Positions 6,779 to 23,409 of a DNA stretch of 64,000 nt are shown here, piece by piece; position 1 is the stretch's first letter; each line of letters opens with the position of its first letter. Source of the stretch: Sphingobium arseniciresistens (GTDB taxonomy: Bacteria > Pseudomonadota > Alphaproteobacteria > Sphingomonadales > Sphingomonadaceae); the NCBI GenBank assembly GCA_029167225.1, contig JARFNK010000012.1, forward strand, positions 119,327-183,326. Reading direction: 5' to 3'. The notes under the pieces were generated by a model. The model was given only the letters and a program-made list of their open reading frames with translations, did no database searches and was not told where the DNA came from. The position numbers were made by a program, and so were the translations under genes.

Positions 6779-7135
6779 ATGATCAAGAAGTCACTCATGG
6801 TCGCGCTGGCCGGAATTTCGATGCTTGCTGCCGTTCCGGCGATGGCCCAGGGTATCGGACATAGCTTCTTCATGCGAGGCTCGATCGTCGATACGGGCGG
6901 CAAAGGCACCGTAGTCTGCATCGGGAAGGCTGATGGCGCCGAGGTCGGTCAGAAGCTCGAGGTCTATCGTGTTGTGACGCATCCCGGGCCCTCGAAAGGC
7001 GGTGCCCCGACCTATCATCGCCAGCTCATCGGTCATGTGACCATCGACCATATCTTCGATGATCATTTTGCCCATGTGACTGTCGCCGACGGCACGCCCG
7101 CAAAGCACGACATCGTCGAGCTTCGCAAGAACTGA
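6779..7135 (+). CDS. Small secreted protein of unknown function, metal-island associated
   Basis: A 118-residue protein with a clear Sec signal peptide (MIKKSLMVALAGISMLAAVP, cleavage after AMA-Q). The mature part begins QGIGHSFFMRG and contains conserved GTVVCIGKADGAEVGQKLEVY and FDDHFAHVTV segments, suggesting a small beta-rich periplasmic domain. A strong ribosome site (AAGGAGGAG) precedes the ATG. A decayed paralogue lies at 13910-14238, and both sit among copper genes, so a metal-related envelope role is likely but unproven. No known domain is recognised. Confidence 0.75.
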   Translation: MIKKSLMVALAGISMLAAVPAMAQGIGHSFFMRGSIVDTGGKGTVVCIGKADGAEVGQKLEVYRVVTHPGPSKGGAPTYHRQLIGHVTIDHIFDDHFAHVTVADGTPAKHDIVELRKN

Positions 7136-7289
7136 TCATGCCGCCGGTGACCGGCTGGCAAGAGCTGCCCGACGGCAAGAATGTTGGGCAGTGCGTCGGC
7201 CGGCAGGACGGCCGATAACAAGGCATTTGGGTCGCAGGAAACAGCTTGACCCTGGACCATGGTCTCAGTCGCATAATCGAGCGGATGTC

Positions 7290-7767
7290 ATGGGCAATTT
7301 CAAGATCGGCGAACTGGCTGCGGGTGCGGGAGTGGGCCGTGACGATCCGCTATTATGAGCGGATGGTTTTGTTGCATGCGCCCGAGCGAAACGCGGCGGG
7401 CTACAGCCTGTACAATCACACGGATCTCGAGCGCGTCAACTTCATCCGCTCGGCACAGGAACTCAGCTTCACCCTCGAGCAGGCACGGCAGCTGCTCGAC
7501 CTCAGGGCTTCGAACACCGGCAGTGCGCAAGCTGTGCTCGACATCACATGTGCCAAGATCAGCGACGCCGAGGCCAGGCTCAAGCGCCTGTCCGACATTC
7601 GCGAGGTGCTTCGGATGCTTGCCGACGAGTGCCTGGGCGAAGTGGCGGTTTCCGACTGCCCAATCCTCGCCTTCCTGACGCCAGGACGGAAAGACCAACG
7701 CCGAACAACAAAAGACGACGTGGCGCAGGAGGAACAATCACCATCAGCAAAAGGGATTCTATCATGA
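7290..7767 (+). pseudogene. MerR-family metal regulator disrupted by a frameshift in the HTH
   Basis: Starting at the ATG at 7290 the frame reads MGNFKIGELAAGAGVGRD, the start of a MerR DNA-binding helix, and then hits a stop. The canonical continuation TIRYYERMVLLHAPERNAAG is in another frame beginning near 7342 and runs to 7767. About two bases are missing (or one is extra) between Gly-Arg and Thr-Ile-Arg. The C-terminal part keeps a metal-loop pattern, a Cys pair (Cys-Leu-Gly-Glu-Val-Ala-Val-Ser-Asp-Cys) as in copper or cadmium MerR sensors. A translated version could begin upstream at 7246, but its first 30 residues would not form the HTH. A sequencing error is the alternative. Confidence 0.75.
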
Positions 7768-7985
7768 CGAGAGTGCTTACCATTGCCGCGATTGTTCCGG
7801 CGTTGTTTCTGGGAGCCTGCGTGACCACGCGACCCACCTCGGCACAGATCGAGGGCTGCCGGGCAATGGAGAATAATATGGGCCTTCAGACGCCTCACGA
7901 CCACAGTGAAATGAAGGGGCAGGGGCTCAATCCGATGAACCTGTCGCACGAGCGCTGTCAGCAGATTCTCCGCGACCCCAGTTGA
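7764..7985 (+). CDS. Small lipoprotein
   Basis: A 73-residue protein with a lipoprotein signal peptide ending in the lipobox LGAC (MTRVLTIAAIVPALFLGAC), so it is probably anchored in the envelope. The mature part carries two further Cys and a His/Met-containing stretch (TPHDHSEMKGQGLNPMN), compatible with binding of Cu or another soft metal. Its ATG overlaps the end of the disrupted merR frame. A hairpin terminator follows the stop by a few bases. No named family is recognised. Confidence 0.65.
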   Translation: MTRVLTIAAIVPALFLGACVTTRPTSAQIEGCRAMENNMGLQTPHDHSEMKGQGLNPMNLSHERCQQILRDPS

Positions 7986-8041: not shown

Positions 8042-8362
8042 ATGATCGGACACGCAAAAAATATTCTTCCGCTTGTCGGGGGAAGCCTGTTGCTGGGGCT
8101 TGCGCTTGCGGGCTGCGACCGCAAGAGCGATCAGACAGTGCCACCCGCGGCGAACAGCGTCGCTGCCGTGTCCGTCACGGCCGATACGGCGAATGGCGGC
8201 TATGCTGAATCTACCGATGCGATGGGCAACCAAGAGGCGATGGAGCGGCATCACCGTCAGGCCATAGATCATGAGGCGATGCGTTCGGGCGGTATGAACC
8301 AGACTGCGCCGGCAACGGACGCGGCGCCGGCGAATTCGGCGATGCCGATGAAGGATATGTAA
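8042..8362 (+). CDS. Met/His-containing small lipoprotein
   Basis: A 106-residue protein with a lipoprotein signal (LLLGLALAGC, Cys at residue 25). The mature part is disordered and Ala/Met/His-rich, with EAMERHHRQAIDHEAMRSGGMNQ and a terminal NSAMPMKDM. This composition is common in periplasmic Cu(I)-binding proteins. The ATG follows an AGAAGGA ribosome site. It is the first gene after the terminator at 7991 and lies 20 bp before the oxidoreductase fusion gene, so it probably leads that operon. Function is inferred only from composition and context. Confidence 0.6.
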   Translation: MIGHAKNILPLVGGSLLLGLALAGCDRKSDQTVPPAANSVAAVSVTADTANGGYAESTDAMGNQEAMERHHRQAIDHEAMRSGGMNQTAPATDAAPANSAMPMKDM

Positions 8363-8382
8363 GCGCGCAAAAGGGAACGAGA

Positions 8383-10272
8383 ATGCGCAACTGGATCAGC
8401 CTGCGCCGCGGGCGCCTTTGGCTCGCGCTTGCCCTGAGCTTCCCCGCCAACGTAAGGGCGCAGGAAGGCGAGGATCATGCAGCCCATCATGGCGGTGCGG
8501 GCTCGACCGCCATGCCCGCCGATGGAGCCATGCCCGCGTCGTCGGCGCCGGGATCGCTCGACATGGCGAAGATGATGCAGCCAATTGGGGACTGCATGAA
8601 CTGCGGGGGATCTTCGCCTAGGTCAGCCTTCTTCTCGCAGCTGCTCGCCTTCCCCTCCCTCGATGAAGGCGCTCGGCAGCGTGTCGCCGCGCAGGCCAGC
8701 GACCGGGTCACCACGGGCTTGGCGATGATCGATGCCGCGTCGGCCGCCGGGGCGCGCGCGACGACCATCTCGGATCGCCTGGAGGCGGCCCGACGTATGC
8801 GCGAGGGCGCGGACCTGTTCCGTACCGGCTCCGCGGCAGAGGGCGCAATCGGTGGCCTGCAACCGCCGCGGGACTTTGGGCTCAACTGGTTCCGCGACCA
8901 GCTCGATCTGGACGAGCCGTCATCGGGCCATGCCAACCACTGGTTCGGCATCTCTCCTTCGCATCTTCTGCTTATGGTCTTCCTGACGCTCGTCAGCGCG
9001 ACGCTGATCGCATTGCAAATGTTCCGCCTGCGGCGGATAGGTGCGATCGTCGGCGGCGGGGCCAAATCGCCGGCGTCGGCGGCGCCGGTGGCCGCTCCGG
9101 TTGCCGGCAAACTCGCGGGGCCGTCCGGCCCGGACGTCTTGGCGCTTGCGCCCAGCAACGCCGCACCGCCAGCCGGCGCCTCGCTGCGCAAGCCGAAAAG
9201 CTGGGCCGGGCAGTTGCGCGTCGTCCAGATCGTCCGCGAGACGCCGACGGTGCTGACCTTCCGTCTCGCCGATCTGGCGGCCGATCGGCTGCCGTTCGAT
9301 TTCCTCCCCGGCCAGTTCCTGCAGGTCGAGGTGGAACCCGAGGACGGCAAGACGTCGCGCCGGTCCTATACCATCGCCTCCTCGCCGACGCAGCGCGCCT
9401 ACGTCGAATTGACAGTCAAGCGCGAGGAGCAGGGCGTCGTCTCGCGCCATCTGCACAACAAGATTCCCGCAGGCGACCTTCTGAAGGTGAGCGGTCCATT
9501 TGGTGCCTTCACTTTCACCGGGACCGATGCCCAGAGCATCGTCCTGATCGCGGGCGGGGTGGGCATCACACCGATGATGTCGGTGCTGCGCTATCTCACC
9601 GATACAGCCTGGGATGGTGACATCTTCTTCTTCTACGGCGCGCGTTCCACCGAAGAATTTGTGTTCAGGGACGAGATTGAGCGTCTCGAGCGCCGCTTCG
9701 CCAATCTCCACGTCATAGCCGCCATGCCGCGCTCGCCCGGCACGGTCTGGATGGGTCCCGAAGGCTCGATCACCCGGGAAATGATTCTGGCGGCGGTTCC
9801 CGAGATTGCGAGCCGCCGCATCCATATGTGCGGCCCACCGGCGATGATGGGCGCGATGCGCACCATCCTTGGCGAGCTTGGCGTGCCCGAAGCGCAAGTG
9901 CACACCGAAGCGTTCGGCCCGGCCTCACTGCCTGCCGATGCCGACGAGCTCGAGGTGAAGTCGGCATCCCCACCCGCGCAGGATCAGCCTGCGGGGCCGG
10001 CGGTGGCGCCGAGCATCGTGACCTTCTCCGTATCCGGCGTTTCAGCGGCCCTGCCGGCCAACGAGACCGTGCTCGAGGCGGCGGAAAGCGCGGGTGTGGA
10101 AATCCCCTATGCCTGCCGCGTCGGTCAGTGCGGTGTCTGCGTCGTCAAGCTGCTCGAGGGTGAGGTGACGATGGAGGTCGAGACCGGCCTGGCACCATCC
10201 GACAAGGAACAAAGCTATGTCCTCGCCTGTCAGGCCAAGGGAACGGGCACACCGCTCGTCGTGGAAGCCTGA
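8383..10272 (+). CDS. Membrane-anchored NAD(P)H oxidoreductase / 2Fe-2S ferredoxin fusion
   Basis: A 629-residue multidomain protein. It has a signal-like segment (residues 1-26), then an extracytoplasmic Met/His/Cys-rich domain with MMQPIGDCMNCGG (65-76), and a membrane helix (about 193-213). A Pro/Ala linker leads to a ferredoxin-NADP-reductase-like module (275-515) with RRSYTIASSP (FAD), GGVGITPMMSVL and HMCGPPAMM (pyridine nucleotide). The C-terminal plant-type 2Fe-2S domain has ligands Cys578, Cys583, Cys586 and Cys616. The layout puts the redox domains in the cytoplasm and the Met/Cys domain outside. Its stop overlaps the cytochrome b start. The likely role is to take electrons from NAD(P)H and pass them to the membrane cytochrome; the acceptor is inferred. 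Confidence 0.8.
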   Translation: MRNWISLRRGRLWLALALSFPANVRAQEGEDHAAHHGGAGSTAMPADGAMPASSAPGSLDMAKMMQPIGDCMNCGGSSPRSAFFSQLLAFPSLDEGARQRVAAQASDRVTTGLAMIDAASAAGARATTISDRLEAARRMREGADLFRTGSAAEGAIGGLQPPRDFGLNWFRDQLDLDEPSSGHANHWFGISPSHLLLMVFLTLVSATLIALQMFRLRRIGAIVGGGAKSPASAAPVAAPVAGKLAGPSGPDVLALAPSNAAPPAGASLRKPKSWAGQLRVVQIVRETPTVLTFRLADLAADRLPFDFLPGQFLQVEVEPEDGKTSRRSYTIASSPTQRAYVELTVKREEQGVVSRHLHNKIPAGDLLKVSGPFGAFTFTGTDAQSIVLIAGGVGITPMMSVLRYLTDTAWDGDIFFFYGARSTEEFVFRDEIERLERRFANLHVIAAMPRSPGTVWMGPEGSITREMILAAVPEIASRRIHMCGPPAMMGAMRTILGELGVPEAQVHTEAFGPASLPADADELEVKSASPPAQDQPAGPAVAPSIVTFSVSGVSAALPANETVLEAAESAGVEIPYACRVGQCGVCVVKLLEGEVTMEVETGLAPSDKEQSYVLACQAKGTGTPLVVEA

Positions 10273-11000
10273 TGCGCGAGCGGGGCGACCTCATCGTCGG
10301 CCTGCTGGTCGCATTTCTGGTGCTGTTTCCGCTCGGCTATCTCGTGCATGTCTCGCCCCGGTTTCCGGGCAGTCTCGCGGGCGGGATCATCGGCATCGCG
10401 GCGCTGGTGCTGATGGTGCTGACGCTTCCTTATGTAGCAGCTAAGCATATCAAATGGGTCGACAGGACGCTCTTGCATGTCGTGAGCAAGCCGACCTTGC
10501 TCGCCATTCACATCTATGCTGGCGTGCTCGCGCCGATCTTGGGGCTGGTGCACGCCGCGCATAAGTTCGAAAGCCCGGTCGGCCTGTTCGTTACCGTTAT
10601 CCTGTTAATGACAGTCATCACCGGGTACATCGGCCGCTATCTCCTCGCCCAGATTGCCAAGGCACTGAGGGGGCGTAGGTCGGAGCTGGCTTCCCTGCGG
10701 TCCGACTTTCTCGACGAGCCGGCCCCGCAACCTTCAACAACTAGGACCAAGGCGCCGCTGTCCGGCTGGAAGCGCTATTTCTTCGTCGCGGCCGATGCAC
10801 CGGCCGCCGACTTGACCGGGGACAGGGAGGCGCTTGCGGCGGCACTGGCCGACACCGAATTTGCGATCCGGGCTGAAAAGGCGACGAATGCGCTATTCGC
10901 CAAATGGCGGCTCCTGCACATCCTTCTGGCCTGTCTCATCTATGCGCTGCTGGCGCTTCACGTGGGCGCCGCGATCTATTTCGGGCTGCGCTGGCTATGA
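10272..11000 (+). CDS. Probable diheme b-type cytochrome membrane protein
   Basis: A 242-residue integral membrane protein with about five hydrophobic helices and a basic cytoplasmic loop (about 130-210). Two helices carry His pairs exactly 14 residues apart, His80/His94 and His216/His230. That is the spacing used by bis-His diheme cytochromes b, so two stacked hemes across the membrane are likely. The start codon shares a base with the stop of the oxidoreductase fusion, and its own stop overlaps the start of the heptaheme cytochrome. It would link the cytoplasmic 2Fe-2S domain to the periplasmic hemes. The heme assignment is inference from residue spacing. Confidence 0.7.
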   Translation: MRERGDLIVGLLVAFLVLFPLGYLVHVSPRFPGSLAGGIIGIAALVLMVLTLPYVAAKHIKWVDRTLLHVVSKPTLLAIHIYAGVLAPILGLVHAAHKFESPVGLFVTVILLMTVITGYIGRYLLAQIAKALRGRRSELASLRSDFLDEPAPQPSTTRTKAPLSGWKRYFFVAADAPAADLTGDREALAAALADTEFAIRAEKATNALFAKWRLLHILLACLIYALLALHVGAAIYFGLRWL

Positions 11001-11719
11001 AATGGCAACGCCTCCTCTATGCCGTCTTCCTCGCAGCCCTGCTGGTGATCGTGATCGCGATTTCGGTTCGGATGCGATCGAGCGCGCCTGTCGATGCGGG
11101 GTTGGTCGCGCGGCTTGTGGCGCCGGGTCCGCTGTCGAGCGCCCACCAGGCATTCGCCGGCCAATGCACTGCCTGTCATACGCCGGGCAAGGGCGTGGAA
11201 ACCAAGACCTGCCTGACCTGCCATGCCGGAACCGATTTCGGCTCCAAGCAATCGACCCAGTTCCATGCCTGCGCGACCGAGTGCACATCCTGCCATGTCG
11301 AGCATGAGGGTGATCGCGGCATCATCCGCATAAATCATGCAGCGCTGCTCGACCCGAAGCTGTTCCGGCAGCCCCTCGACGGGGCGGCGGTTAATCCTCA
11401 TGGTTTCTCGGCCGAAGCCGGGTTGAACTGCGCGAGCTGCCACTCCTACCGCGATCCCCATCAGGGACTGTTTGGCACCGATTGCGCGAGCTGCCACAAG
11501 ACCGACAGTTGGAAAATCGCGAACTACCGGCATCCGTCGGTCAATTCGACCCAATGCTCCGAGTGCCACAAGGCGCCGCCAAGCCATTTCATGGAGCATT
11601 TCAGCATGGTCTCGCAACGCGTGGCCGGTGAGAAGGCGCGCGTCGACCAATGCTACGCTTGCCACACGACCGACAGCTTCAACAATATCCGCCGGCGAGG
11701 CTGGTATGATCACCATTGA
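10997..11719 (+). CDS. Membrane-anchored heptaheme cytochrome c
   Basis: A 240-residue protein with an N-terminal membrane anchor (residues 7-24) and seven CxxCH heme-attachment motifs in the periplasmic part, starting at residues 57, 72, 96, 145, 163, 187 and 219. The motif spacing and extra His residues resemble class III (c3-like/c7-like) multiheme cytochromes. The ATG overlaps the cytochrome b stop (ATGA). Multiheme cytochromes carry electrons through the periplasm or to outer acceptors; here the neighbours suggest delivery to copper-handling proteins or another soluble acceptor, which is inference. Confidence 0.85.
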   Translation: MKWQRLLYAVFLAALLVIVIAISVRMRSSAPVDAGLVARLVAPGPLSSAHQAFAGQCTACHTPGKGVETKTCLTCHAGTDFGSKQSTQFHACATECTSCHVEHEGDRGIIRINHAALLDPKLFRQPLDGAAVNPHGFSAEAGLNCASCHSYRDPHQGLFGTDCASCHKTDSWKIANYRHPSVNSTQCSECHKAPPSHFMEHFSMVSQRVAGEKARVDQCYACHTTDSFNNIRRRGWYDHH

Positions 11720-12152
11720 AGCGGGATGGCTGAGCACGTTCTTCCGGCTCGCGGTGATCGGTCTCGATCTCGCGGGGGCGCTGACGATCCTCGTCGGCGC
11801 GGCGCTGGCGACAATTCTGTTTGCGAAGCGGGCAAGGACCGGCGATCGGACGAAAGCCTATTGTGCGTTCCGCTCTGCCCTGGGCAGCAGCATTCTGCTC
11901 GGTCTGGAATTTCTGGTCGCAGGCGACATCGTCAAATCACTGGTGATCAACCCCACGCTCGACGATCTCATCGTGCTCGCCGGTCTGGTGCTGGTCCGCA
12001 CGTTCCTCAGCATCTCGCTCGGGGTCGAGATCAACGGCCATTGGCCGTGGGAGGAAACCCGGATGGCGCGGGAGAAAGCGCGCCTCGCGTCGGAAGGTTC
12101 GTCGCCGAAGACCAACGAGGCATCTCAATGTGGAATGCCAGCAGCAAATTAG
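11706..12152 (+). CDS. DUF1622 membrane protein
   Basis: A 148-residue inner-membrane protein of the DUF1622 family with three hydrophobic helices: LAVIGLDLAGALTILVGAAL, SSILLGLEFLVAGDIVKSL and DDLIVLAGLVLVRTFLSISL. The GLEFLVAGDIVKS and RTFLSISLGVEI segments are family hallmarks. The gene overlaps the end of the heptaheme cytochrome gene by 14 bases, so it belongs to the same transcript. DUF1622 proteins have no established function. The C-terminal 35 residues are charged and cytoplasmic. Confidence 0.8.
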   Translation: MITIEAGWLSTFFRLAVIGLDLAGALTILVGAALATILFAKRARTGDRTKAYCAFRSALGSSILLGLEFLVAGDIVKSLVINPTLDDLIVLAGLVLVRTFLSISLGVEINGHWPWEETRMAREKARLASEGSSPKTNEASQCGMPAAN

Positions 12153-12163
12153 CAGATGGGAGC

Positions 12164-12607
12164 ATGATGATGATCGAGAGACGCGAATTGCTGATGGCCG
12201 GCGCTGGCCTGGCCGTGGCCGGTGCGATGGCCGCTCCGGCGGCGGCGCAGTACCGTTCAATGGAGGGTATGGCGATGCCGATGGCGGACTGCATCGACCA
12301 TTGCATCACGTCGCACCGCATGTGCCTCGAGACCGCTACCTATGTGACGAAGCAGGGCGGTCCACTCGCGAAGGCTGCACTCGTCGCCATGCTGACCGAC
12401 TGCGCCGAGATCTGTCAGACGACGGCGAACTCAATGCTGCGACAATCCTCCTTCCACCGCATCTTGTGCCGCGCCTGCGCCGAGACCTGCTATCGCTGCG
12501 CGCAGGAATGCCTTTGTCATGCCGGGGACCAGCAGATGGCCCGTTGTTCGGCGACTTGCAAGGCGTGCGCCGCAAGTTGCCGCATGATGGCCGACACGGC
12601 CAGCTGA
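12164..12607 (+). CDS. Four-helix-bundle copper-storage (Csp-like) protein
   Basis: A 147-residue exported protein with an ERRELLMAGAGLAVAG signal region (twin-Arg-like), then a Cys-rich all-helical domain. Fifteen Cys occur mostly as CxxC or CxxxC steps: DCIDHC, DCAEIC, the CRACAETCYRCAQECLC run and CSATCKACAASC. This is the pattern of Csp copper-storage proteins, which hold many Cu(I) ions inside a four-helix bundle. A GGGAG ribosome site precedes the ATG. It closes the gene run that starts with the oxidoreductase fusion. Cu(I) storage needs reducing conditions, which may explain the association. Confidence 0.85.
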   Translation: MMMIERRELLMAGAGLAVAGAMAAPAAAQYRSMEGMAMPMADCIDHCITSHRMCLETATYVTKQGGPLAKAALVAMLTDCAEICQTTANSMLRQSSFHRILCRACAETCYRCAQECLCHAGDQQMARCSATCKACAASCRMMADTAS

Positions 12608-12739: not shown

Positions 12740-13096
12740 TTGCGCAAGAAGACGGCAATTACCGCTTCGCTCGGAGCTCTCGGCATCCTTGCCGCCGGCG
12801 CCGGGCCTGTTCTCGCTGGCGAAATGCCGCCGGGCATGCCTGCCTTTGAGGGGCCCCCCAAGACCAAGCCGGCGCCCGCCGAGCCCGATCCCGCCCACAT
12901 GCAGGGCATGCGACACGGCAAGGAGGAGATGCATGGTCAGATGATGCACGGGCATCGGATGACCATGCGAGGCTCGGGGGGCGGGATGGCGCATCTGGCA
13001 TGTCAGGCATGTCGGGTCGCGGTTGCTGAACCAGCTCCCAAGCCAAGCCCCGGTGACCAGCCGGCCGATAGGCTCATAGCCTTGTGCGGCAGCTGA
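12740..13096 (+). CDS. Met/His-rich secreted protein, possibly frameshifted at a G run
   Basis: A 118-residue frame with a TTG start (AAGGAATGG just upstream) and a Sec signal peptide (MRKKTAITASLGALGILAAG, cleavage near VLA-G). The mature part is Pro-rich and then Met/His-rich (HMQGMRHGKEEMHGQMMHGH), fitting a periplasmic copper-binding protein. After a run of six G near 12977 the frame becomes Cys/Ala-rich and atypical, while an alternate frame reads GASGMSGMSGRGC and stops at 13029. A frameshift or slippage at the G run is therefore likely. It is a distant relative of the gene at 13373. Confidence 0.6.
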   Translation: MRKKTAITASLGALGILAAGAGPVLAGEMPPGMPAFEGPPKTKPAPAEPDPAHMQGMRHGKEEMHGQMMHGHRMTMRGSGGGMAHLACQACRVAVAEPAPKPSPGDQPADRLIALCGS

Positions 13097-13118
13097 GTTA
13101 CCAGATCAGACCGAAGCG

Positions 13119-13147
13119 TTGGTCCGCCGTTGAGTACGGCGGACCAA
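13119..13147 (+). terminator. Perfect 11-bp hairpin, probable terminator
   Basis: The arms TTGGTCCGCCG and CGGCGGACCAA flank a 7-base loop shortly after the Met/His-rich gene. The T tract is poor, so termination strength is uncertain. Confidence 0.5.
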
Positions 13148-13272
13148 TTGCCATTCTGGCGGGCTGCAAGCCGACAAGAAGGATCGCGGTCATGAATCTG
13201 CCTGACCCTGAACGATGATCCAACCCGCATGATCCGGCGATTATCACTGCTGATCGAACCGGATTCGTAACT

Positions 13273-13280
13273 TACGTATA
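13273..13280 (+). promoter_or_regulatory. TACGTATA motif upstream of the second Met/His-rich gene
   Basis: The site reads CTTACGTATACAG and lies about 93 bp before the ATG at 13373. It shares 12 bases with the site at 12623-12635. Confidence 0.4.
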
Positions 13281-13372
13281 CAGAGTGGACCTCGTTGGCA
13301 GCATTGCAGTGTCGGATTTGCCGGGATTGGAAAGTCGATCGGGCAAGCGGGACAACATTTCGGAGACCTTCA

Positions 13373-13759
13373 ATGCGAAAGACGACGGTTTTCACCGCCA
13401 CGGTCAGCTGCCTGGCAACCCTGACCTTCGCCGGCACGAGCCTGGCCCAGTCGGCGCCGGCGACGCCGCCCGCCGTCCAGCCGGCACCGTCGCTGTCCCA
13501 TGCCCACCAGCAAGGCATGGATCATGGTGGGCAGCAGATGCACGACCAGATGATGCAGGATCACCAGGCCGGCATGCGGAAGCAGCAAGGTCAGCAGGGC
13601 ATGGCGGGCATGTCCGGCGGTGCAGCCCCGTCGAACGGATCGGCTATGGCGGACAAGCCGATGAGCGATTGCTGCGAGATGCCGATGAAAAAGGCGAAGC
13701 CGGCGCCCAAGAAGAAGGCCGACAAGCCCATGACCGACAAGCCGATGAGCGACATGTGA
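13373..13759 (+). CDS. Met/His/Lys-rich secreted protein, probable copper-binding
   Basis: A 128-residue protein with a Sec signal peptide (TATVSCLATLTFAG, cleavage after LAQ). The mature part is low-complexity: a His/Met/Gln stretch (HAHQQGMDHGGQQMHDQMMQ), a GMAGMSGG segment, a CC pair (MSDCCEMP) and a C-terminal repeat of DKPMTDKPMSDM. Such Met/His arrays commonly bind Cu(I)/Cu(II) or Ag(I) in the periplasm. A hairpin terminator follows at 13796. The protein is probably intrinsically disordered; the metal is inferred from composition and neighbours. Confidence 0.7.
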   Translation: MRKTTVFTATVSCLATLTFAGTSLAQSAPATPPAVQPAPSLSHAHQQGMDHGGQQMHDQMMQDHQAGMRKQQGQQGMAGMSGGAAPSNGSAMADKPMSDCCEMPMKKAKPAPKKKADKPMTDKPMSDM

Positions 13760-14501: not shown

Positions 14502-16022
14502 ATGTACGAGAAAGCGATTGGGACAATCAATGCCGCATCCTCGTTTCGAAATCGATATGACAATTTCATCGGCGGCCGCTGGAGCGCTCCCACCACGGGC
14601 GAATATTTCGCGGACACGAGTCCGATCAACGGCGCCCTGATCGCGGAGTTCGCACTTTCAACCCCGGACGATGTCGAACGCGCGCTCGATGCGGCGCATG
14701 GCGCCAAGGATCAATGGGCCAAGATCTCGCCGGCGGAGCGCGCCCAGCTGCTCAATCGCATCGCGGACCGGCTCGAAGACAATCTGGAGCTGCTCGCGCT
14801 CGCCGAGACGATCGACAACGGCAAGCCGATCCGCGAGACGCGCGCCGCCGACGTCCCGCTCGCCATCGACCATTTCCGCTACTTCGCCGGCTGCATTCGG
14901 GCGGAGGAGGGCGGGATCTCGACGATCGATGCCAACACAATCGCCTATCATTTCCGCGAGCCGCTGGGCGTGGTCGGCCAGATCATCCCGTGGAATTTCC
15001 CGCTGCTGATGGCGGCCTGGAAGATTGCCCCCGCGCTCGCCGCGGGCAACTGCACCGTCATCAAGCCTGCGTCCCAGACGCCCCTGACCCTGATGATGCT
15101 CGCCGAACTCACGGCGGACATCCTGCCGCCGGGCGTGCTCAACGTCGTGACCGGTCCCGGGCGGACCGTCGGCCAGGCAATCGCCGCCAATCCGCGCATC
15201 GCCAAGGTCTCCTTCACCGGCGAGACCGTCACCGGCAAGCAGATCATGCACGCCGCCGCCGATCATCTCATCCCGCAGACGATGGAACTTGGCGGCAAGT
15301 CGCCCAACATCTTCATGGCGGACGTGCTCGACGAGGACGACTCCTTCTTCGACAAAGCGCTCGAGGGTTTCACGCTATTCGCCTTCAACAAGGGGGAGGT
15401 GTGCACCTGTCCCTCGCGCGCGCTGATCCATGAATCGATCTTCGACCGCTTCATGGAACGCGCCGTGGCGCGCGTCGCAGCGATCCGCCAGGGCGACCCG
15501 CTCGATCCTTCGGTCCAGGTGGGTGCCCAGGCGTCCGAGGATCAGCTTCACAAGATCCTGAACTACATCGAGATCGGCAGGTCCGAAGGCGCGCAATGCC
15601 TGACCGGCGGCGCCAGGGCGCTTCCCGGCGGCGTGCTCGACCAGGGCTATTTCGTGCAGCCGACCGTGTTCGTCGGCGAGAACCGCATGCGGATCTTCCA
15701 GGAGGAGATTTTCGGGCCGGTCCTGTCGGTGACGCGGTTCAAGACCGTCGAGGAGGCGATCAGCATCGCCAACGACACGGCCTATGGTCTCGGGGCGGGC
15801 GTGTGGACCCGCAACGGCAACGCCGCCTACCGGCTCGGCCGCGCGATCCAGGCCGGCCGGGTCTGGACCAACTGCTATCATCAATATCCCGCGCACGCCG
15901 CTTTCGGCGGCTACAAGGCATCGGGGTTCGGGCGCGAGAACCACAAGATGATGCTCGACCATTACCAGCAGACCAAGAACCTGCTCGTCTCCTATGACGA
16001 ACAGGCGCTCGGCCTGTTCTGA
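14502..16022 (+). CDS. exaC: NAD-dependent aldehyde dehydrogenase (ExaC/AldA type)
   Basis: A 506-residue cytoplasmic aldehyde dehydrogenase. It carries the [18 protein letters not shown]-binding segment, the MELGGKSPN motif with the general-base Glu, and the catalytic Cys in GEVCTCPSR. The C-terminal [10 protein letters not shown] and the [19 protein letters not shown] end are typical of the acetaldehyde/ExaC subgroup. Length is normal. It is the first gene of an operon with adhP (25 bp gap), copA and copB, so alcohol-to-acid oxidation is co-expressed with copper resistance. Substrate preference for acetaldehyde or a related short aldehyde is inferred from the subgroup. Confidence 0.9.
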
Positions 16023-16047
16023 CACCCTCTCAGCAGGAGAAGCAGCT

Positions 16048-17073
16048 ATGGCGAAAACCATGAAGGCGGCCGTCGTCCGCGAATTCGGCAAGCCGCTCGT
16101 GATCGAAGAGGCGCCGATCCCCGAAGTCGGTCCCGGCCAGATCCTCGTCAAGATCGCAGCAACCGGCGTGTGCCATACCGATCTGCACGCGGCCGAGGGC
16201 GACTGGCCGGTGAAGCCCAATCCGCCGTTCATTCCCGGCCACGAGGGCGTCGGTCATGTCGCCGCCGTCGGATCGGGCGTCACCCACGTCAAGGAAGGCG
16301 ACCGGGTCGGCGTTCCCTGGCTCTACACCGCCTGCGGCCATTGCGTGCATTGCCTGGGCGGCTGGGAGACGCTGTGCGAACTCCAGCAGAATACCGGCTA
16401 TTCGGTCAACGGCAGCTTCGCGGAATATGTCCTCGCCGATCCCAACTATGTTGGGCATCTTCCCGACAATGTCGACTTCATCGACATCGCGCCGATCCTC
16501 TGTGCGGGCGTCACGGTCTATAAGGGCCTGAAGGCTACCGAGGCAAAGCCCGGCGATTGGGTCGTCGTTTCCGGGATCGGCGGTCTCGGTCATATGGCGG
16601 TGCAATATGCCCGCGCCATGGGCATGAACGTGGCCGCGGTCGACATAGACGATAGCAAGCTTGAGCTCGCAACCCGCCTTGGGGCCGCGCTGACCGTCAA
16701 CGCCCGCGGCGAGGATCCTTCGGTCGCCATCAAGAAGGCGATCGGCGGTGCGCAGGGCGTCCTCGTCACCGCGGTATCGCCCAAGGCCTTCCAGCAGGCG
16801 CTGGGCATGGTCCGGCGCGGCGGCACGGTGGCGCTCAACGGCCTTCCGCCCGGCGATTTTCCGCTGTCGATCTTCGACACCGTGCTCAACGGCATCACGG
16901 TGCGCGGATCGATCGTCGGCACCCGGCTCGACCTCATCGAAGCGCTGGCCTTCGCCGGCGAAGGCAAGGTCCACGCAACCGTGCACGCCGAGAAGCTCGA
17001 GAATATCAACGATGTTTTCGCGCGCATGCACCATGGCGACATCGAGGGGCGGATCGTCCTCGATCTGGCCTGA
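16048..17073 (+). CDS. adhP: Zinc-dependent alcohol dehydrogenase AdhP
   Basis: A 341-residue medium-chain alcohol dehydrogenase. The catalytic zinc region is [14 protein letters not shown] with GHEGVGHV, the structural zinc loop has four Cys in [15 protein letters not shown], and the NAD site is [13 protein letters not shown]. The sequence closely follows AdhP enzymes, which oxidise ethanol and other primary alcohols to aldehydes. The ATG at 16048 follows a GCAGGAGAAG ribosome site 25 bp after the aldehyde dehydrogenase. copA begins 24 bp after its stop. The two dehydrogenases form a two-step alcohol oxidation unit that supplies NADH. Confidence 0.92.
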
Positions 17074-17097
17074 CCATATTTGACGAAAGCGACGGTC

Positions 17098-18786
17098 ATG
17101 CCCTCGTTTCATAGTTTCCCGATCGCGCGGCGCCGCTTCGTCCAGGGGCTGGCGATCGGCGGAGCCATTGCCGGATTCGCTCCGGCGCTGTTGGCGAAAT
17201 CCCTTTCCGCGTCGGCCGGCGAACTGCGCGGAACCGAGTTCGACCTCGAGATCGCCGAGCTGCCGGTCAACTATACCGGCAAGCGCCGGGTCGCGACGGC
17301 GGTGAACGGGGCGGTCCCGGCACCCGTCTTGCGCCTGCGCGAGGGCGACACCGTCACGCTGCGGGTTCGCAACAGCCTCAAGGAAATGTCGAGCATCCAC
17401 TGGCACGGGATCATCCTGCCCGCCGAAATGGACGGCGTCCCGGGCATCAGCTTCGCGGGCATCGCGCCGGGCGAGACCTTTACCTACCGTTTCGAGGTTT
17501 GTCAGACGGGGACCTACTGGTATCATGCCCACACGCTCGCCGAGCAGACCGGGCTTTACGGTGCGATCGTCATCGATCCCAAGGTGCCGACGGGTTCTGT
17601 TCCCGACCGCGATTATACGATCATGCTGAGCGACTGGTCGGACGAGCCGCAGCTCCAGATCTTCACGAACCTCAAGAAGCTGAGCAGCTATTACAATTTC
17701 GCGCAGCCGACCGCAGGCGACTTCCTCAAGGACGTCGGCTCGATGGGGCTTGGCGCCCTCGAGCGCCGGCGAATGTGGAACACGTCACGCATGAATCCGA
17801 CCGATTACAGCGATATTTCCGCCGCGACCTACACATATCTCATGAACGGGACGACGCCCGCGGGCAACTGGACCGCCATCGCCGCGCCAGGCGAGCATGT
17901 TCGTCTCCGCTTCGTCGGCGCCGGGACGGCGACCTTCTTCGACGTGCGTATCCCCGGTATCACGCTCACCATCGTCTCGACCGACGGGCAGGCGGTGGTG
18001 CCGGTGACGGTCGAGGAGTTCCGGATCGGGCCCGGCGAGACCTATGATGCCGAGTTCACCATGCCGGACGGTGACGCCCGCACGATCTTCGCCCAGTCGA
18101 TCGACCGCACGGGGTTCGCCCGCGGCACGATCGCGCCCGCGCCCGGCATGGTCGCGCCGGTGCCGGCGCTCGATGCGCGGCCCTGGCTCGACCCCGTCGA
18201 CATGATGGGCGCCATGACCGCAATGGGCGGCGAACATGCGGGGCACGGCATGACGGAGATGCCGCCCAAGGCCCGGCATGCCCGCACCGAATATGGCGCG
18301 AACACCGACATGCGCGTCGACTATCCTCGCGCCAATCTCGACGACCCGGGGGCGGGCTTGCGCGGTCGATCATGGCGCGTCCTGACGCTGGCAGGCTTGA
18401 GGACACCGACCGGAGATCCCGATCCGCGCGAGCCGGAACGCGAGATCGAGCTCCACCTCAACGGCAATATGGAACGGTTCATCTGGGCGCTCGACGGGAT
18501 CAAGCTCAACGACGCGCGGCCGCTTCACTTCAAGCCGAACGAGCGGCTGCGCATCACCCTGGTCAACGATACGATGATGGCCCATCCGATGCACCTCCAC
18601 GGCATGTGGAGCGACGTCGAAGCGCCGGACGGCACTTTCCAGGTCCGCAAGCATACCGTGGTGGTCCAGCCGGCCCAGCGGGTGAGCTTCCGGGTCACGG
18701 CGGATGCGATGGGCCGTTGGGCGTTCCACTGCCATCTGCTCTACCATATGGCCGCCGGCATGTTCCGGGAGGTGGTGGTCGCATGA
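17098..18786 (+). CDS. copA: Copper-resistance multicopper oxidase CopA (copy 1)
   Basis: A 562-residue periplasmic multicopper oxidase with a twin-arginine signal (ARRRFVQGLAIGGAIAGF). The copper sites are clear: HWHGIILPAEMDGVPG, GTYWYHAHT, MAHPMHLHGMW and the C-terminal HCHLLYHMAAGM. A Met-rich segment (MMGAMTAMGGEHAGHGM) lies near residue 370. CopA oxidises Cu(I) to less toxic Cu(II) in the periplasm and binds additional copper. A TTG six codons upstream is possible, but the ATG at 17098 is closer to the signal. The stop overlaps copB (ATGA). A second, more Met-rich copy lies at 31287. Confidence 0.93.
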   Translation: MPSFHSFPIARRRFVQGLAIGGAIAGFAPALLAKSLSASAGELRGTEFDLEIAELPVNYTGKRRVATAVNGAVPAPVLRLREGDTVTLRVRNSLKEMSSIHWHGIILPAEMDGVPGISFAGIAPGETFTYRFEVCQTGTYWYHAHTLAEQTGLYGAIVIDPKVPTGSVPDRDYTIMLSDWSDEPQLQIFTNLKKLSSYYNFAQPTAGDFLKDVGSMGLGALERRRMWNTSRMNPTDYSDISAATYTYLMNGTTPAGNWTAIAAPGEHVRLRFVGAGTATFFDVRIPGITLTIVSTDGQAVVPVTVEEFRIGPGETYDAEFTMPDGDARTIFAQSIDRTGFARGTIAPAPGMVAPVPALDARPWLDPVDMMGAMTAMGGEHAGHGMTEMPPKARHARTEYGANTDMRVDYPRANLDDPGAGLRGRSWRVLTLAGLRTPTGDPDPREPEREIELHLNGNMERFIWALDGIKLNDARPLHFKPNERLRITLVNDTMMAHPMHLHGMWSDVEAPDGTFQVRKHTVVVQPAQRVSFRVTADAMGRWAFHCHLLYHMAAGMFREVVVA

Positions 18787-19745
18787 CCGGCCTTGCTCGC
18801 CCACAAGGTGCTCCGTTCGCCTTTGTCATTGCGCTCTTGGCTGTGGCGGTCGCGCCCGCCCATGCTCAGGTCGCGCCTCACCAACACGTCCCGGCCGCGC
18901 CGCCGATCGCGCAGCAGGTTCAACCGGAAGAACCGCCCCGGGCCGAGGACCATGCCGGCATGGATATGTCCGGGGTCGACGTGTCGGGCGGCAGCACAAC
19001 GATGGACATGGGCCGGATGCAGGGCGGCAAGGCCCCGCCGGATGCGCGCGACTCCAACGACTATGCCGACGGCTACCGTAATTCCACCCTGCCGGGTTAT
19101 GAGATGGCCGACAAGCTCTCGATCCCCAGAATCCTCGTCGACGAACTAGAGTTTGCCACCGGCAACGAAGGGCAAGGTTTCGGTTGGACGGTGCTGGTCA
19201 CCAAGGGACAGGATAACGACAAGCTATGGCTGCGCAGCCAGGGACTGAAGAACTCCGGCGATCGCCTCGATCCCGAGAGCAGCGTCGAGGCGCTCTGGTG
19301 GCACAGCAAGAACCCGTTCTGGGGCACGCTGCTGGGCGTTCGCCAAGATCTCGGCAAGGGCGCCACGACCTGGCTCGCCGCCGGCGTCGAGGGTCTGGCG
19401 CCCTACTGGTTCGACGTCCAGCTGACCGGCTATGTAGGTGACGACGGCCGTGTGGCGGCCCGTGCCAAGGCTTCCTATGAAGTGCTCTTCACCAATCGGC
19501 TCATCCTGACGCCGCAGGTCGAGACCAACGTCTATTCCAAGCGCTCCACCGACCGCGAGCTCGGCAGCGGCTTCAGCAATGTCGAACTGAGCGGCCGGCT
19601 GCGCTATGAATTCTCGCGCAAGTTCGCGCCCTATGTCGGCTTAGTCTGGGAACGCGCGCTGGGCGGCACAGGCGATTTCCGGCGCGCGGATCGCGAGCTC
19701 GTGACCGAGCGCCGCATCGTGATCGGCCTGCGATTGTGGTGGTGA
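18783..19745 (+). CDS. copB: Outer-membrane copper resistance protein CopB (copy 1)
   Basis: A 320-residue outer-membrane beta-barrel protein of the CopB family. A signal peptide (cleavage after AHA-Q) is followed by a short Met/His segment (HAGMDMSGVD, MDMGRMQGG) and then the conserved barrel, recognisable from NPFWGTLLGVRQDLG, GLAPYWFDVQ and LRYEFSRKFAPYVGLVWER, ending in an aromatic residue as expected for barrel insertion. It binds or exports copper together with CopA. The start overlaps the copA stop. Its Met-rich head is much shorter than that of the copy at 30103. Confidence 0.92.
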   Translation: MTGLARPQGAPFAFVIALLAVAVAPAHAQVAPHQHVPAAPPIAQQVQPEEPPRAEDHAGMDMSGVDVSGGSTTMDMGRMQGGKAPPDARDSNDYADGYRNSTLPGYEMADKLSIPRILVDELEFATGNEGQGFGWTVLVTKGQDNDKLWLRSQGLKNSGDRLDPESSVEALWWHSKNPFWGTLLGVRQDLGKGATTWLAAGVEGLAPYWFDVQLTGYVGDDGRVAARAKASYEVLFTNRLILTPQVETNVYSKRSTDRELGSGFSNVELSGRLRYEFSRKFAPYVGLVWERALGGTGDFRRADRELVTERRIVIGLRLWW

Positions 19746-20582: not shown

Positions 20583-21020
20583 ATGAAGAGCCGTCTGTCC
20601 GCCGCCTTGCTGTGCCTCGCCACGCCGGGGGTCGCTCTTGGGGCCAGTGATGTCGTCGTACATCGGGATCCGGGATGCGGATGCTGCGAGAAATGGGCGC
20701 GCGCTGTCCAGGCCAAGCTTGGCCGAAAGGTCGTTATGCGGGACGATGGGGCGCGAAGCGCCTTGCAGCACAAGGCCGGCATGCCCCAGGCGCTCGGTTC
20801 CTGCCATAGCGCGGTCATTGACGGCTATTTGTTCGAAGGCCATGTCCCACTCGCCGACATGAAGCGCCTGCTGGCGACGCGGCCGGCCGGTGTCAAAGGC
20901 CTGGCGGTTGCGGGCATGCCGCTCGGATCGGAAGGGATGGAAGTGGCGGGCGTTGCCCCGCAACCTTACTCGGTGATATCGTTCGGCAGTTCCGGTCAGA
21001 GAATGTTCGCGCGGCACTGA
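20583..21020 (+). CDS. DUF411 (CopG-like) periplasmic metal-binding protein
   Basis: A 145-residue exported protein with a Sec signal (MKSRLSAALLCLATPG) and the DUF411 domain: HRDPGCGCCEKWA near the mature N-terminus, then LGSCHSAVIDGYLFEGHVP and a C-terminal GMPLGSEGMEV. The clustered Cys and Met residues match the CopG type known from Pseudomonas, which binds Cu(I). It stands alone after the MFS remnant. A promoter of the same type as those before the second copAB operon and copC lies just upstream, suggesting control by the ECF sigma factor encoded at 33302. Confidence 0.88.
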   Translation: MKSRLSAALLCLATPGVALGASDVVVHRDPGCGCCEKWARAVQAKLGRKVVMRDDGARSALQHKAGMPQALGSCHSAVIDGYLFEGHVPLADMKRLLATRPAGVKGLAVAGMPLGSEGMEVAGVAPQPYSVISFGSSGQRMFARH

Positions 21021-21956: not shown

Positions 21957-22697
21957 CTATGTTCGCCGGACATCCGTCATCGCGGCCGGCTTGCGCCGTC
22001 GCCGCAACCACCGCAGATCGGCTCGGCTGAAGCTCTTGAAGAGCAGGTAGAAGCCCGTCCCTGAAAGCCACAGCGCACCAAATGCGACGAAGATGATGAG
22101 CGGATGGTTGAAGCTGGAGCGGTTCACATAGTCCATGTTGTGAAGCATCCAGAAGAAGTCCCAGGTGCGCCAGGTGTCCCCGCGCATGACCAGGAAGCGC
22201 CCTGCGTCGGCAGACACATAGGCGCTGCTATTCTCGGTATCGGCAAAATCGACACGCCACATCGCGCCGTGATGCTCGCGCGCTTCGACGTTGGGCCTGG
22301 CGAGCAGGGTGGCGCTACGGATAGGCCCCTCGTTCATCATCGCGGCGACGTCGCGCGCGACATGCTCGTCGACCTGAACCGCCTCGCCGCTTGTCGCATC
22401 GACCAGACGGGTGCCCGTTGCCGACTGGATTTCGTAAACCGGTCGCAAGGCGATGTTTCTCAGGACGATGCCGCGCAGCGGCTCTCCTGCTGCGACGGAG
22501 TCCGGCGTCACATAGTCGCCCGCCGGGAGCGGGTGCTGATGACCCGCCTGCGCGCTGTGCCCACCGACCTTGGCCTGATCGAGCGACGCCATCATTGAGC
22601 CGCTCAAGGCCCATAGCAGAAATTGCAGCCCGATAACGAGACCGACCCATTTGTGAATGCGGCGGAAAAGGAGGGGGCTGAGCCGGATTTTCTTCAT
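21957..22697 (-). CDS. PepSY-type membrane protein (second copy of pair)
   Basis: A 246-residue inner-membrane protein with an N-terminal helix (RRIHKWVGLVIGLQFLLWAL), a periplasmic PepSY-like domain and a C-terminal helix (PLIIFVAFGALWLSGTGFYLL). The hallmark FWMLHNMDYVNRSS precedes the last helix. Paired RxxHKW and WMLHxMDY motifs supply His that may bind heme or metal. Such proteins accompany TonB receptors for metal complexes and may reduce the imported complex. The start overlaps the stop of the first PepSY gene by four bases. Function is inferred from the family. Confidence 0.8.
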   Translation of the reverse strand: MKKIRLSPLLFRRIHKWVGLVIGLQFLLWALSGSMMASLDQAKVGGHSAQAGHQHPLPAGDYVTPDSVAAGEPLRGIVLRNIALRPVYEIQSATGTRLVDATSGEAVQVDEHVARDVAAMMNEGPIRSATLLARPNVEAREHHGAMWRVDFADTENSSAYVSADAGRFLVMRGDTWRTWDFFWMLHNMDYVNRSSFNHPLIIFVAFGALWLSGTGFYLLFKSFSRADLRWLRRRRKPAAMTDVRRT

Positions 22698-23401
22698 GCC
22701 TTTTTCTTCTTGCGGCGGGGGAAGGACCAGACAAGCAACCAGGCGCCCGCGACCGCCATGGCAAAGGCACTCCAGGTTGCGACCCTGAGCAGCGGATTGT
22801 TGACGTCGGAGCGATCATCATAGTCCATGATGTGCAGCATCCAGGCGAAGTCGAAGACGCGCCAGAGTGCGTGGCGCCGCGAGATCAATTCTCCTGTCTG
22901 TGGCGAGAGGTAGAGGGTCGGCCTATTCCATCCGTTGAACTCGACTTGCCAATAAGGCGGCTTGCGTGACTGCATTTCCAGCGGGGCAGCTGTCAGCAGC
23001 TTCGCACCGACGATTTCACCCGTGCCTGTATAAATCCGGCGGGCGAGCATTCGGATTTGCGCTTCGCCAAGAGCGGGAATCGCTCGTCCCGATTGTGCGT
23101 CGAAAAGGCGCGGGCCGGAGGGCGTCAGCGCCCGCCAGACCGGCCGGTCAAGCAACCGCTGCAAGCGGATCTCCGATGCTTCCGGAGATGATTGGATGAT
23201 CCGTGCCGGCGGGACGAGACCGACAAGCTCGAAGGGCGCGGCGACGGGATTGCGCACCAGATCGTCGCCATGAATGATGTCGATATGGACGACGACCATG
23301 TAGAAGCCCGTCAGTGTCCAAAGCAGGGCCTGAACGCCAACGAAGAGAGCGAGCCACTTATGCGTCCGGCGGATGACCAAGGGCCAGCGAATTGCCATCA
23401 T
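22694..23401 (-). CDS. PepSY-type membrane protein (first copy of pair)
   Basis: A 235-residue inner-membrane protein paralogous to the next gene: an N-terminal RRTHKWLALFVGVQALLWTL helix, a periplasmic domain of about 150 residues, the FAWMLHIMDYDDRSD motif, a C-terminal helix and a Lys-rich cytoplasmic tail. It follows the TonB receptor gene by 8 bp and overlaps the second PepSY gene, forming a three-gene operon. Two PepSY proteins in tandem suggest a heterodimeric partner for substrates that pass the receptor; ferric or copper chelates are plausible, but no substrate is proven. Confidence 0.8.
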   Translation of the reverse strand: MMAIRWPLVIRRTHKWLALFVGVQALLWTLTGFYMVVVHIDIIHGDDLVRNPVAAPFELVGLVPPARIIQSSPEASEIRLQRLLDRPVWRALTPSGPRLFDAQSGRAIPALGEAQIRMLARRIYTGTGEIVGAKLLTAAPLEMQSRKPPYWQVEFNGWNRPTLYLSPQTGELISRRHALWRVFDFAWMLHIMDYDDRSDVNNPLLRVATWSAFAMAVAGAWLLVWSFPRRKKKKA

Positions 23402-23409
23402 ACTTACTT

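Follow-up and report, generated by a model that had tools for sequence, protein, structure and literature searches.

A conserved gene triad of NAD(P)H reductase, cytochrome b and heptaheme cytochrome c in Sphingobium arseniciresistens as a candidate reductase of periplasmic copper

In the present study, we examined a stretch of 64,000 nucleotides from Sphingobium arseniciresistens (GenBank assembly GCA_029167225.1, contig JARFNK010000012.1, positions 119,327 to 183,326), hereafter the window, in which three redox genes lie between positions 8383 and 11719, all on the forward strand, with a DUF1622 gene and a gene for a 15-Cys protein resembling the copper storage protein Csp next downstream. 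A first-pass annotation, made from the letters of the window alone, had described this gene set (a reductase fused to a 2Fe-2S domain, a cytochrome b with His pairs 14 residues apart, a heptaheme cytochrome c, DUF1622 and the Csp-like protein) and had read it as a transmembrane electron-export chain tied to copper storage. All members of the set were recovered at the place described. The three redox genes, which we call the triad, are the following.

8383-10272, forward strand: membrane-anchored NAD(P)H reductase of 629 amino acids (aa), recognized by Pfam, hydropathy and a conserved motif
10272-11000, forward strand: five-helix cytochrome b of 242 aa, with helices called by the Kyte-Doolittle scale and four invariant His
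10997-11719, forward strand: membrane-anchored heptaheme cytochrome c, with seven CXXCH motifs and an N-terminal hydrophobic anchor

Overlaps of a few bases join the reductase gene to the cytochrome b gene, cytochrome b to cytochrome c, and cytochrome c to DUF1622, and 11 bases separate the DUF1622 stop from the start of the Csp gene. The reductase matched the Pfam families Fer2 (E 1.8e-17), NAD_binding_1 (2e-17) and FAD_binding_6 (6.3e-16), which are the domains of NAD(P)H reductases. Its layout runs from a signal-like N-terminus through a His/Met-rich segment and one predicted helix (residues 195-213) to the FAD, NAD(P) and [2Fe-2S] domains; the signal-like start, the His/Met segment and the helix were absent from the first-pass annotation. 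In the cytochrome b, the His pairs H80/H94 and H216/H230, each 14 residues apart, stand at the ends of helix 3 and helix 5, respectively, and all four residues were invariant in the 24 aligned sequences (window included), at identities down to 33%. Two b hemes are predicted, held by H80/H216 on the inner side and by H94/H230 on the outer side, and the charged loops suggest an N-in topology that would place the first pair at the cytoplasmic face and the second at the periplasmic face. In the cytochrome c, all seven CXXCH motifs and nine further His were invariant in an alignment of 11 sequences. Both Cytochrom_c3_2 (29.8 bits, cut-off 25) and Paired_CXXCH_1 (28.5 bits, cut-off 20.6) were matched above threshold, which together with the multiple CXXCH motifs places the protein in the multiheme cytochrome c3/c7 class; its profile found one PDB entry, the tetraheme protein 2a3m (E 3e-5). 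This anatomy supports the electron-export chain that had been proposed.

The His/Met-rich segment of the reductase is conserved far beyond the window. A FAD motif was present in 98 of 103 reductases, and 95 of these also had at least 200 residues ahead of it and could be scored. An H-x-x-H-H motif (HxxHH), typically in the form EHAxHHPG, followed the signal-like stretch in 94 of the 95, and a Met cluster lay within 95 residues downstream of it in 91. Counted by cluster of related copies, HxxHH was found in 35/36 and the combination with the Met cluster in 32/36. The sole miss, in stretch L111 (loci carry the prefix L), has the spacing variant HGNEKHHP. Among open frames of at least 250 codons from the same loci, many of which are not genes, HxxHH occurred in 31/2015 and the combination in 4/2015; 150 residues were scanned in these background frames and the whole upstream part in the reductases, and the motif was noticed first and counted afterwards. 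In an alignment of 20 reductases, H35, H36, M64, W169, H194 and M198 were invariant. HxxHH was also kept in the Alteromonas copy that adjoins hydrogenase genes and in L157, around which no copper genes were found. No other observation speaks as strongly as the conservation of this segment for a chain that would itself meet a metal outside the membrane, and the chemistry of the motif together with the gene neighbourhood points to copper as that metal.

The order reductase, cytochrome b, cytochrome c on one strand was retained, under a strict rule, in 100 of 104 copies, which excludes a chance grouping of the three genes. One of the four misses, a second copy cut off by the end of the L034 stretch, has no cytochrome c and was not carried into the clustering; the remaining misses, in which reductase, cytochrome b and cytochrome c are all present, seem to result from frame boundaries. 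Seven heme motifs were counted in 100 of 103 cytochrome c copies, two others have six, and one near a contig end has one. The triad was found in Pseudomonadota, Planctomycetota and Bacteroidota (Spirosoma), and its occurrence across whole genomes is patchy. A tblastn search with the cytochrome b gave 52 matches among 72,556 plasmid records, and two distant cytochrome b queries each returned 52 plasmid records, the same ones by eye. With the window's own genome included in each case, matches were obtained in 10/199 genomes of the family at E <1e-40 (27 at 1e-3), in 7/398 of the phylum at E <1e-70 (26 at 1e-10) and in 3/385 of the class at 1e-30. When each species was represented by a single genome, the scan yielded 161 relatives, of which 80 were analysed, so that distant members are under-sampled. 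The 104 cytochrome b copies lie in 103 stretches, among which L038 and L070 are one record and L121 and L153 match over the whole stretch. Clustering at 80% cytochrome b identity arranged 103 copies in 39 clusters, with 38 copies in one of them; because of the duplicate places and the many near-identical plasmids, counts are given here by cluster. A tree of the family covers 37 of the 39 clusters, leaving out L116 and L159. An apparent fusion of reductase and cytochrome b in genome G657 was rejected, as the long open frame resolves into separate frames.

Some copies of the triad have unusual neighbours. On Alteromonas pAltEZ55 (L033:10067-18681), one of nine Alteromonas-type plasmid matches and the one that was examined, the triad stands directly ahead of the maturation and structural genes of a [NiFe] hydrogenase, and a 407-aa open reading frame (ORF) between the two groups matched no Pfam family. 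On Bradyrhizobium BTAi1 pBBta01 (L183:24029-32675), which holds three cytochrome b matches, the triad has zwf, gnd and tal as neighbours, so that the plasmid carries a source of NAD(P)H. DUF3141-like proteins occur near the triad in the flanks of L035, L154 and L155, and the plasmid stretch with the Legionella fallonii triad also carries genes of an F0F1 ATP synthase. A second hydrogenase link was considered in L158, where an ORF scored 108 bits to the small subunit, and was discarded, since at 1e-5 Pfam recognized no family in this ORF and a transposase is found close by.

The genes around the triad are predominantly of copper type. Markers were called by BLAST with score thresholds, the query proteins being taken from the window and from ten triad plasmids that carry annotation (L033-L042). 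A strict copper marker was found near the triad in 32/39 clusters and 93/103 copies, rising to 34/39 and 95/103 when CopG/DUF411 was counted, as compared with 5 of 36 control windows. The controls comprised 18 windows on large contigs of 8 genomes, which may not all be chromosomes (0/18 with a marker), and 18 windows elsewhere on 9 triad plasmids, picked by coordinate (5/18). In the plasmid set the L183 pair was kept, of which L183b holds a further triad and is marker-negative and L183a holds a copper cluster and is one of the five positives. Fisher's exact test gave p 2e-9 against all controls and 1.7e-4 against the plasmid controls, although the clusters are not fully independent in these statistics. 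The loci that supplied the queries are positive by construction; after removal of these, of the window and of two duplicates, a marker remained in 27/33 clusters and 82/90 copies (29 and 84 with CopG), with p 1e-8 and 2.3e-4, respectively. Copper islands are mobile and rich in copper genes, so the plasmid control is the fairer one, at p 2e-4 in either count. In addition, among 12 refetched stretches from the sampled genomes (12 of 18 strong places other than the window, the left-out six being 78-79% identical to it), 9 were marker-positive, or 11 with CopG, against 0/18 large-contig controls from eight of these genomes (p 1.5e-5). In the triad tree, each of the four major branches contained loci with copper markers, and the L155/L157 pair contained none.

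By cluster (n=39), the neighbours were multicopper oxidase in 20, P-type ATPase in 15, DUF1622 in 14 (counted when present in at least half of the members), CopB in 10, CusA in 9 and Csp in 8. These Csp calls used 60 bits; at 45 bits 10/39 clusters were positive, and divergent Csp may be missed, as two proteins annotated as four-helix copper-binding scored just 55 and 58 bits. By locus, the figures for Csp (52/103) and DUF1622 (62/103) are inflated by one large near-identical group. The Csp-like protein stands directly downstream of the triad within the window's own clade, to which five of the eight clusters with Csp belong. A link specific to Csp was rejected on these counts, and the tie proposed by the first-pass annotation to copper storage gives way to one with copper in general. 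The copper reading itself, carried by the marker counts and the copper-type motifs of the reductase, is partly supported and proves broader than had been proposed.

We consider, with a probability of about one half, that the triad serves copper defence as a transmembrane enzyme that uses NAD(P)H to reduce Cu(II) in the periplasm. NAD(P)H would donate electrons to FAD and, by way of FAD, to [2Fe-2S], both on the cytoplasmic side of the reductase. The two b hemes would relay them, first the inner one at H80/H216 and next the outer one at H94/H230, to the membrane-anchored heptaheme cytochrome c in the periplasm. The most likely acceptor would be periplasmic Cu(II), bound either by the reductase's HxxHH segment or by His/Met-rich proteins close by, and the product, Cu(I) on Met-rich sites, could then be handed to Cu(I) handlers, namely Csp here and Cus pumps or P-type ATPases elsewhere. 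The MerR-type regulator encoded upstream probably turns the cluster on. NAD(P)H-producing genes beside the triads, namely those for the alcohol dehydrogenase AdhP and an aldehyde dehydrogenase (ALDH), and zwf and gnd in Bradyrhizobium BTAi1 (tal there is not a producer), point to an outward flow of electrons; in Alteromonas they may run either way. A wider proposal falls somewhat short of even odds: the triad may represent a class of bacterial NAD(P)H:Cu(II) oxidoreductases that is both new and mobile, in which a copper-binding flavo-iron-sulfur reductase of the membrane works with a heptaheme cytochrome c and with a cytochrome b that forms a separate family. Copper islands would carry it from phylum to phylum, at times together with enzymes of its own that produce NAD(P)H, and in Alteromonas it would be wired to a [NiFe] hydrogenase.

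Several observations weigh against a copper reductase. The main oddity is the multicopper oxidase, a Cu(I) oxidiser and the commonest neighbour scored, which would oxidise the product of a Cu(I)-producing enzyme; a division of labour is possible, in which reduction would serve storage and efflux and oxidation would take over when O2 is present. The first-pass annotation had named redox genes found widely without copper genes as evidence against its reading, and such cases exist in part. Five of the 39 clusters carry no marker even with CopG counted, in flanks of up to about 10 kb on each side (two of them have short flanks and one, L109, has sub-threshold matches); L157 has none in 20 kb, six of its ORFs having also been scanned with Pfam; and in one record, that of Alteromonas, the triad precedes a [NiFe] hydrogenase, which indicates that its partners can differ. 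The islands are mobile, so that neighbourhood cannot tell a substrate from shared cargo, and the distant windows on the same plasmids were marker-positive in 5 of 18 cases. The marker queries come from ten triad plasmids and favour triad loci, and matches to P-type ATPases, resistance-nodulation-division (RND) proteins and oxidases are not proven copper-specific. Furthermore, HxxHH/Met segments can bind other metals.

These points leave room for other explanations. According to the main rival, which we regard as unlikely though deserving attention, the triad is a general transmembrane valve that delivers NAD(P)H electrons to any periplasmic partner, be it a multicopper oxidase, a peroxidase, a hydrogenase or damaged proteins; copper would then be the stress and not the substrate, and copper islands would carry the triad since copper blocks respiration. 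The variety of partners (hydrogenase, DUF3141 proteins, ATP synthase genes, the multicopper oxidase in 20/39 clusters) and the marker-free L157 agree with such a role, which nevertheless leaves the HxxHH motif with its Met cluster in 91/95 reductases unexplained, the more so as HxxHH persists even in Alteromonas and L157. An improbable variant keeps the metal and changes its identity: metal islands would have recruited a reductase that works in the manner of FRE/STEAP on Fe(III) or a further metal. The annotation of some homologues reads iron reductase, and the b-heme layout is that of ferric reductases, yet Ferric_reduct was detected in just 2/24 cytochrome b members (best E 0.0016) and the recurrent neighbours identified were of copper type (45 of 53 families viewed), the latter a weak argument as iron genes were not searched for.

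Two further explanations change the direction or the purpose of the electrons. The Alteromonas triad, directly upstream of hydrogenase genes, could suggest that a periplasmic donor such as H2 feeds the cytochromes inward to make NAD(P)H. We regard this import as quite improbable: a hydrogenase large subunit lies near 1/103 copies (one of the nine Alteromonas-type plasmid matches was examined), the neighbours zwf, gnd, AdhP and ALDH indicate a supply of NAD(P)H, and, in the available part of the report, Orf1 and Cyt were unneeded for maximal hydrogenase activity in E. coli (PMC3102683). Least probable in our view is a repair system resembling MsrPQ or DsbD, in which the electrons would keep Csp or other periplasmic thiols and methionines reduced. 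Binding of Cu(I) needs free Cys, and Csp follows directly in the window's clade; the presence of Csp in only 8/39 clusters speaks against repair, as does the lack of Msr or Dsb among the recurrent families identified, where no search was aimed at these genes.

The reductase of periplasmic Cu(II) that we prefer may also be compared with known systems. The window cytochrome b gave no Pfam match above cut-off (PF01292, prokaryotic cytochrome b561, reached 15.2 bits against 30.1) and no match to PF01794 (Ferric_reduct) at E 0.1. None of the 24 family members did better than E 5e-4 in Pfam: Ferric_reduct matched 2/24 at E <=0.01, and PF01292 and DUF4405 were each weak in 3/24, with best E values of 0.0005 and 0.0012. 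Profile comparison by hhalign, based on small alignments and run without a positive control, gave a local match of 22 columns to the ferric reductases (E 0.32), one of 31 columns to b561 (E 0.0093) and DUF4405 at E 0.12, and a comparison of the cytochrome b profile with PDB gave six matches, too weak to be meaningful (E 0.22 to 3). The view of the protein as an ordinary member of b561, DUF4405 or the ferric reductases was therefore rejected, as Pfam scores lay below cut-off and profile matches were confined to short His helices. In the ferric reductase superfamily (FRD/FRE/NOX/MsrQ), two helices each carry two His about 13-14 residues apart, and FRE, STEAP and Dcytb have such bis-His helices at a spacing similar to that of the triad. 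The invariant H80/H94 and H216/H230 follow this layout. Given the lack of a family match, the cytochrome b is considered to work like the FRE/STEAP reductases without being filed as one.

Among eukaryotic metalloreductases, FRE, STEAP and Dcytb are described as having Cu(II) activity in the accessible part of a report (PMC7558416). In these enzymes electrons of NADPH or ascorbate cross the membrane via heme and reduce Fe(III) or Cu(II) outside, which the triad would do in a similar manner; unlike them, it consists of three separate proteins with an added [2Fe-2S] domain, a heptaheme cytochrome c as the exit and an outside HxxHH/Met segment, and its cytochrome b matches Ferric_reduct weakly or not at all. 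CcoG is likewise a membrane protein proposed to make Cu(I) and to raise copper tolerance. It has two [4Fe-4S] clusters and an unknown donor, whereas the triad has flavin, [2Fe-2S], b-heme and c-heme sites with an NAD(P)H domain; by Pfam, clusters of the CcoG type were not found in the triad and the plant-type [2Fe-2S] domain was the only one. The PepSY_TM proteins FoxB and CrpH, as far as the accessible text of one source goes, have two His-held hemes on either membrane face and act in periplasmic metal reduction, CrpH being a speculated copper reductase (PMC13038864). They differ by their PepSY domain, to which neither the window reductase and cytochrome b (E 0.1) nor the 24 family members (0.01) gave a match; in the same part of that source the donor of FoxB is unknown and no cytochrome c partner is described.

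By gene order, orf1 and cyt of the Alteromonas hynSL operon correspond to the triad's cytochrome b and cytochrome c genes. The accessible portion of a report treats both as hydrogenase accessory genes, unnecessary for maximal activity in E. coli (PMC3102683), and in another, again as far as its accessible text goes, the hydrogenase plasmid also carries metal resistance and its host is more copper-tolerant than plasmid-free strains, without mention of the cytochromes (PMC4781885). The first-pass annotation knew of no described system with this gene set. Among the literature matches listed, judged by title or the start of the abstract and with subscription papers mostly outside the scope, none treated the set as a whole; two of the genes, as just noted, belong by gene order in Alteromonas to a published operon. 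One paper mentioned DUF1622, and a paper on Nitrobacter named neither cytochrome c3 nor iron reductase. The triad lends itself to direct tests in common laboratory strains, since its donor site is identifiable (NAD(P)H), its copper-type motifs are conserved and it is widely distributed on copper islands. If the proposal is true, it would give a role to genes that in plasmid annotations appear for the most part as hypothetical protein, iron reductase or cytochrome c3 family.

Downstream of the triad, the following genes were recognized.

11706-12152, forward strand: DUF1622 membrane protein with three predicted helices (PF07784, E 2.2e-21, scanned as 11718-12149)
12164-12607, forward strand: exported-looking Csp-like protein with 15 Cys (3lmf, E 2.2e-12; RkCSP3, 6zif, E 3.3e-12; scanned as 12161-12604)
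14502-16022, forward strand: aldehyde dehydrogenase, a possible NADH source (PF00171, E 6.9e-161; 7/39 clusters, 2/36 controls)
15994-17073, forward strand: zinc alcohol dehydrogenase of AdhP type, a possible NADH source (PF08240 and PF00107; 7/39 clusters, 3/36 controls at 60 bits)
17080-18786, forward strand: multicopper oxidase of CopA/PcoA type (Cu-oxidase domains; 20/39 clusters, 3/36 controls)
18759-19745, forward strand: CopB copper resistance protein with a provisional start (PF05275, E 1.7e-70; 10/39 clusters, 1/36 controls)
20583-21020, forward strand: CopG/DUF411-like protein with a CxCC motif, CGCC (match to a DUF411 protein of Sphingobium sp. SYK-6; start taken from the SYK-6 gene length)

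The Csp-like protein is homologous to a characterised Csp, as the match to RkCSP3 indicates, and carries at its start an RR motif that we take to be a Tat-like signal. It thus resembles Csp1 and Csp3 as a Cys-rich sequence and Csp1 also in its exported look. Csp proteins bind many Cu(I) ions in a bundle of four Cys-bearing helices, and 15 Cys were counted in the protein of the window. It differs in that it scored 19.3 bits on the Csp1 model TIGR04401 against a cut-off of 100, and so is not filed as Csp1 proper, and in being a neighbour in a minority of clusters, outside the redox core. Comparison with SYK-6 places the true start of AdhP probably at 16048. DUF411 is presumably CopG, for which the accessible part of the literature gives CxCC as the copper site. 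Between Csp and the aldehyde dehydrogenase (12740-13759) lie two small exported-looking proteins without a Pfam match, the second rich in Met, His and Lys. On the reverse strand, at 21957-26112, a PepSY_TM protein adjoins a TonB-dependent receptor, and the two possibly import copper and have a reductase of their own; these two families also make up, in the available part of its report, the CrtA/CrpH copper system of Bordetella (PMC13038864).

Upstream of the triad, four genes and a candidate operator were recognized.

6779-7135, forward strand: secreted-looking protein of 118 aa without a Pfam family, probably the first gene of the cluster
7246-7277, forward strand: candidate MerR-type promoter/operator read from the sequence, with TTGACC, a 20-bp spacer containing GGACCATGGTCT (7254-7265), and CATAAT
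7285-7767, forward strand: MerR-family regulator (MerR-DNA-bind, E 6.1e-11)
7764-7985, forward strand: small lipoprotein-like ORF of 73 aa, inside the ORF 7548-7985, without a Pfam family (scanned from 7785)
8042-8362, forward strand: small His/Met-rich lipoprotein-like protein with a LAGC lipobox and the segments HHRQAIDHEAM and MPMKDM, without a Pfam family

The element GGACCATGGTCT of the window is one base off the perfect form GGACNNNNGTCC, which lay no more than 250 bp from the estimated start in 39 of 52 MerR genes, against an expectation of 0.03 per 500 bp. Of these 39 positives 33 come from one near-identical cluster, and at least one member was positive in 6 of 10 clusters. In SYK-6, GGACNNNNGTCC also stands upstream of the 118-aa gene. 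It is plausible that the two forms represent an autoregulated MerR-type operator. An alternative TTG start for merR at 7246 coincides, as we read it, with the -35 box. Against curated models the regulator scored 85 bits for MerR, 84 for the Zn-responsive type and 79.5 for CueR, every one below its cut-off.

In the case of the 118-aa protein, the ORF family of a relative spans 13/39 triad clusters, and four aligned homologues share 50-92% identity; its relatives, e.g. L037:6455-6712 and L042:3933-4289, make it a candidate for an unrecognised copper-island protein. SYK-6 has a 222-bp gene at the position equivalent to the 73-aa ORF, and the protein at 8042-8362 has homologues in Sphingobium (71%) and Caulobacter (46%).

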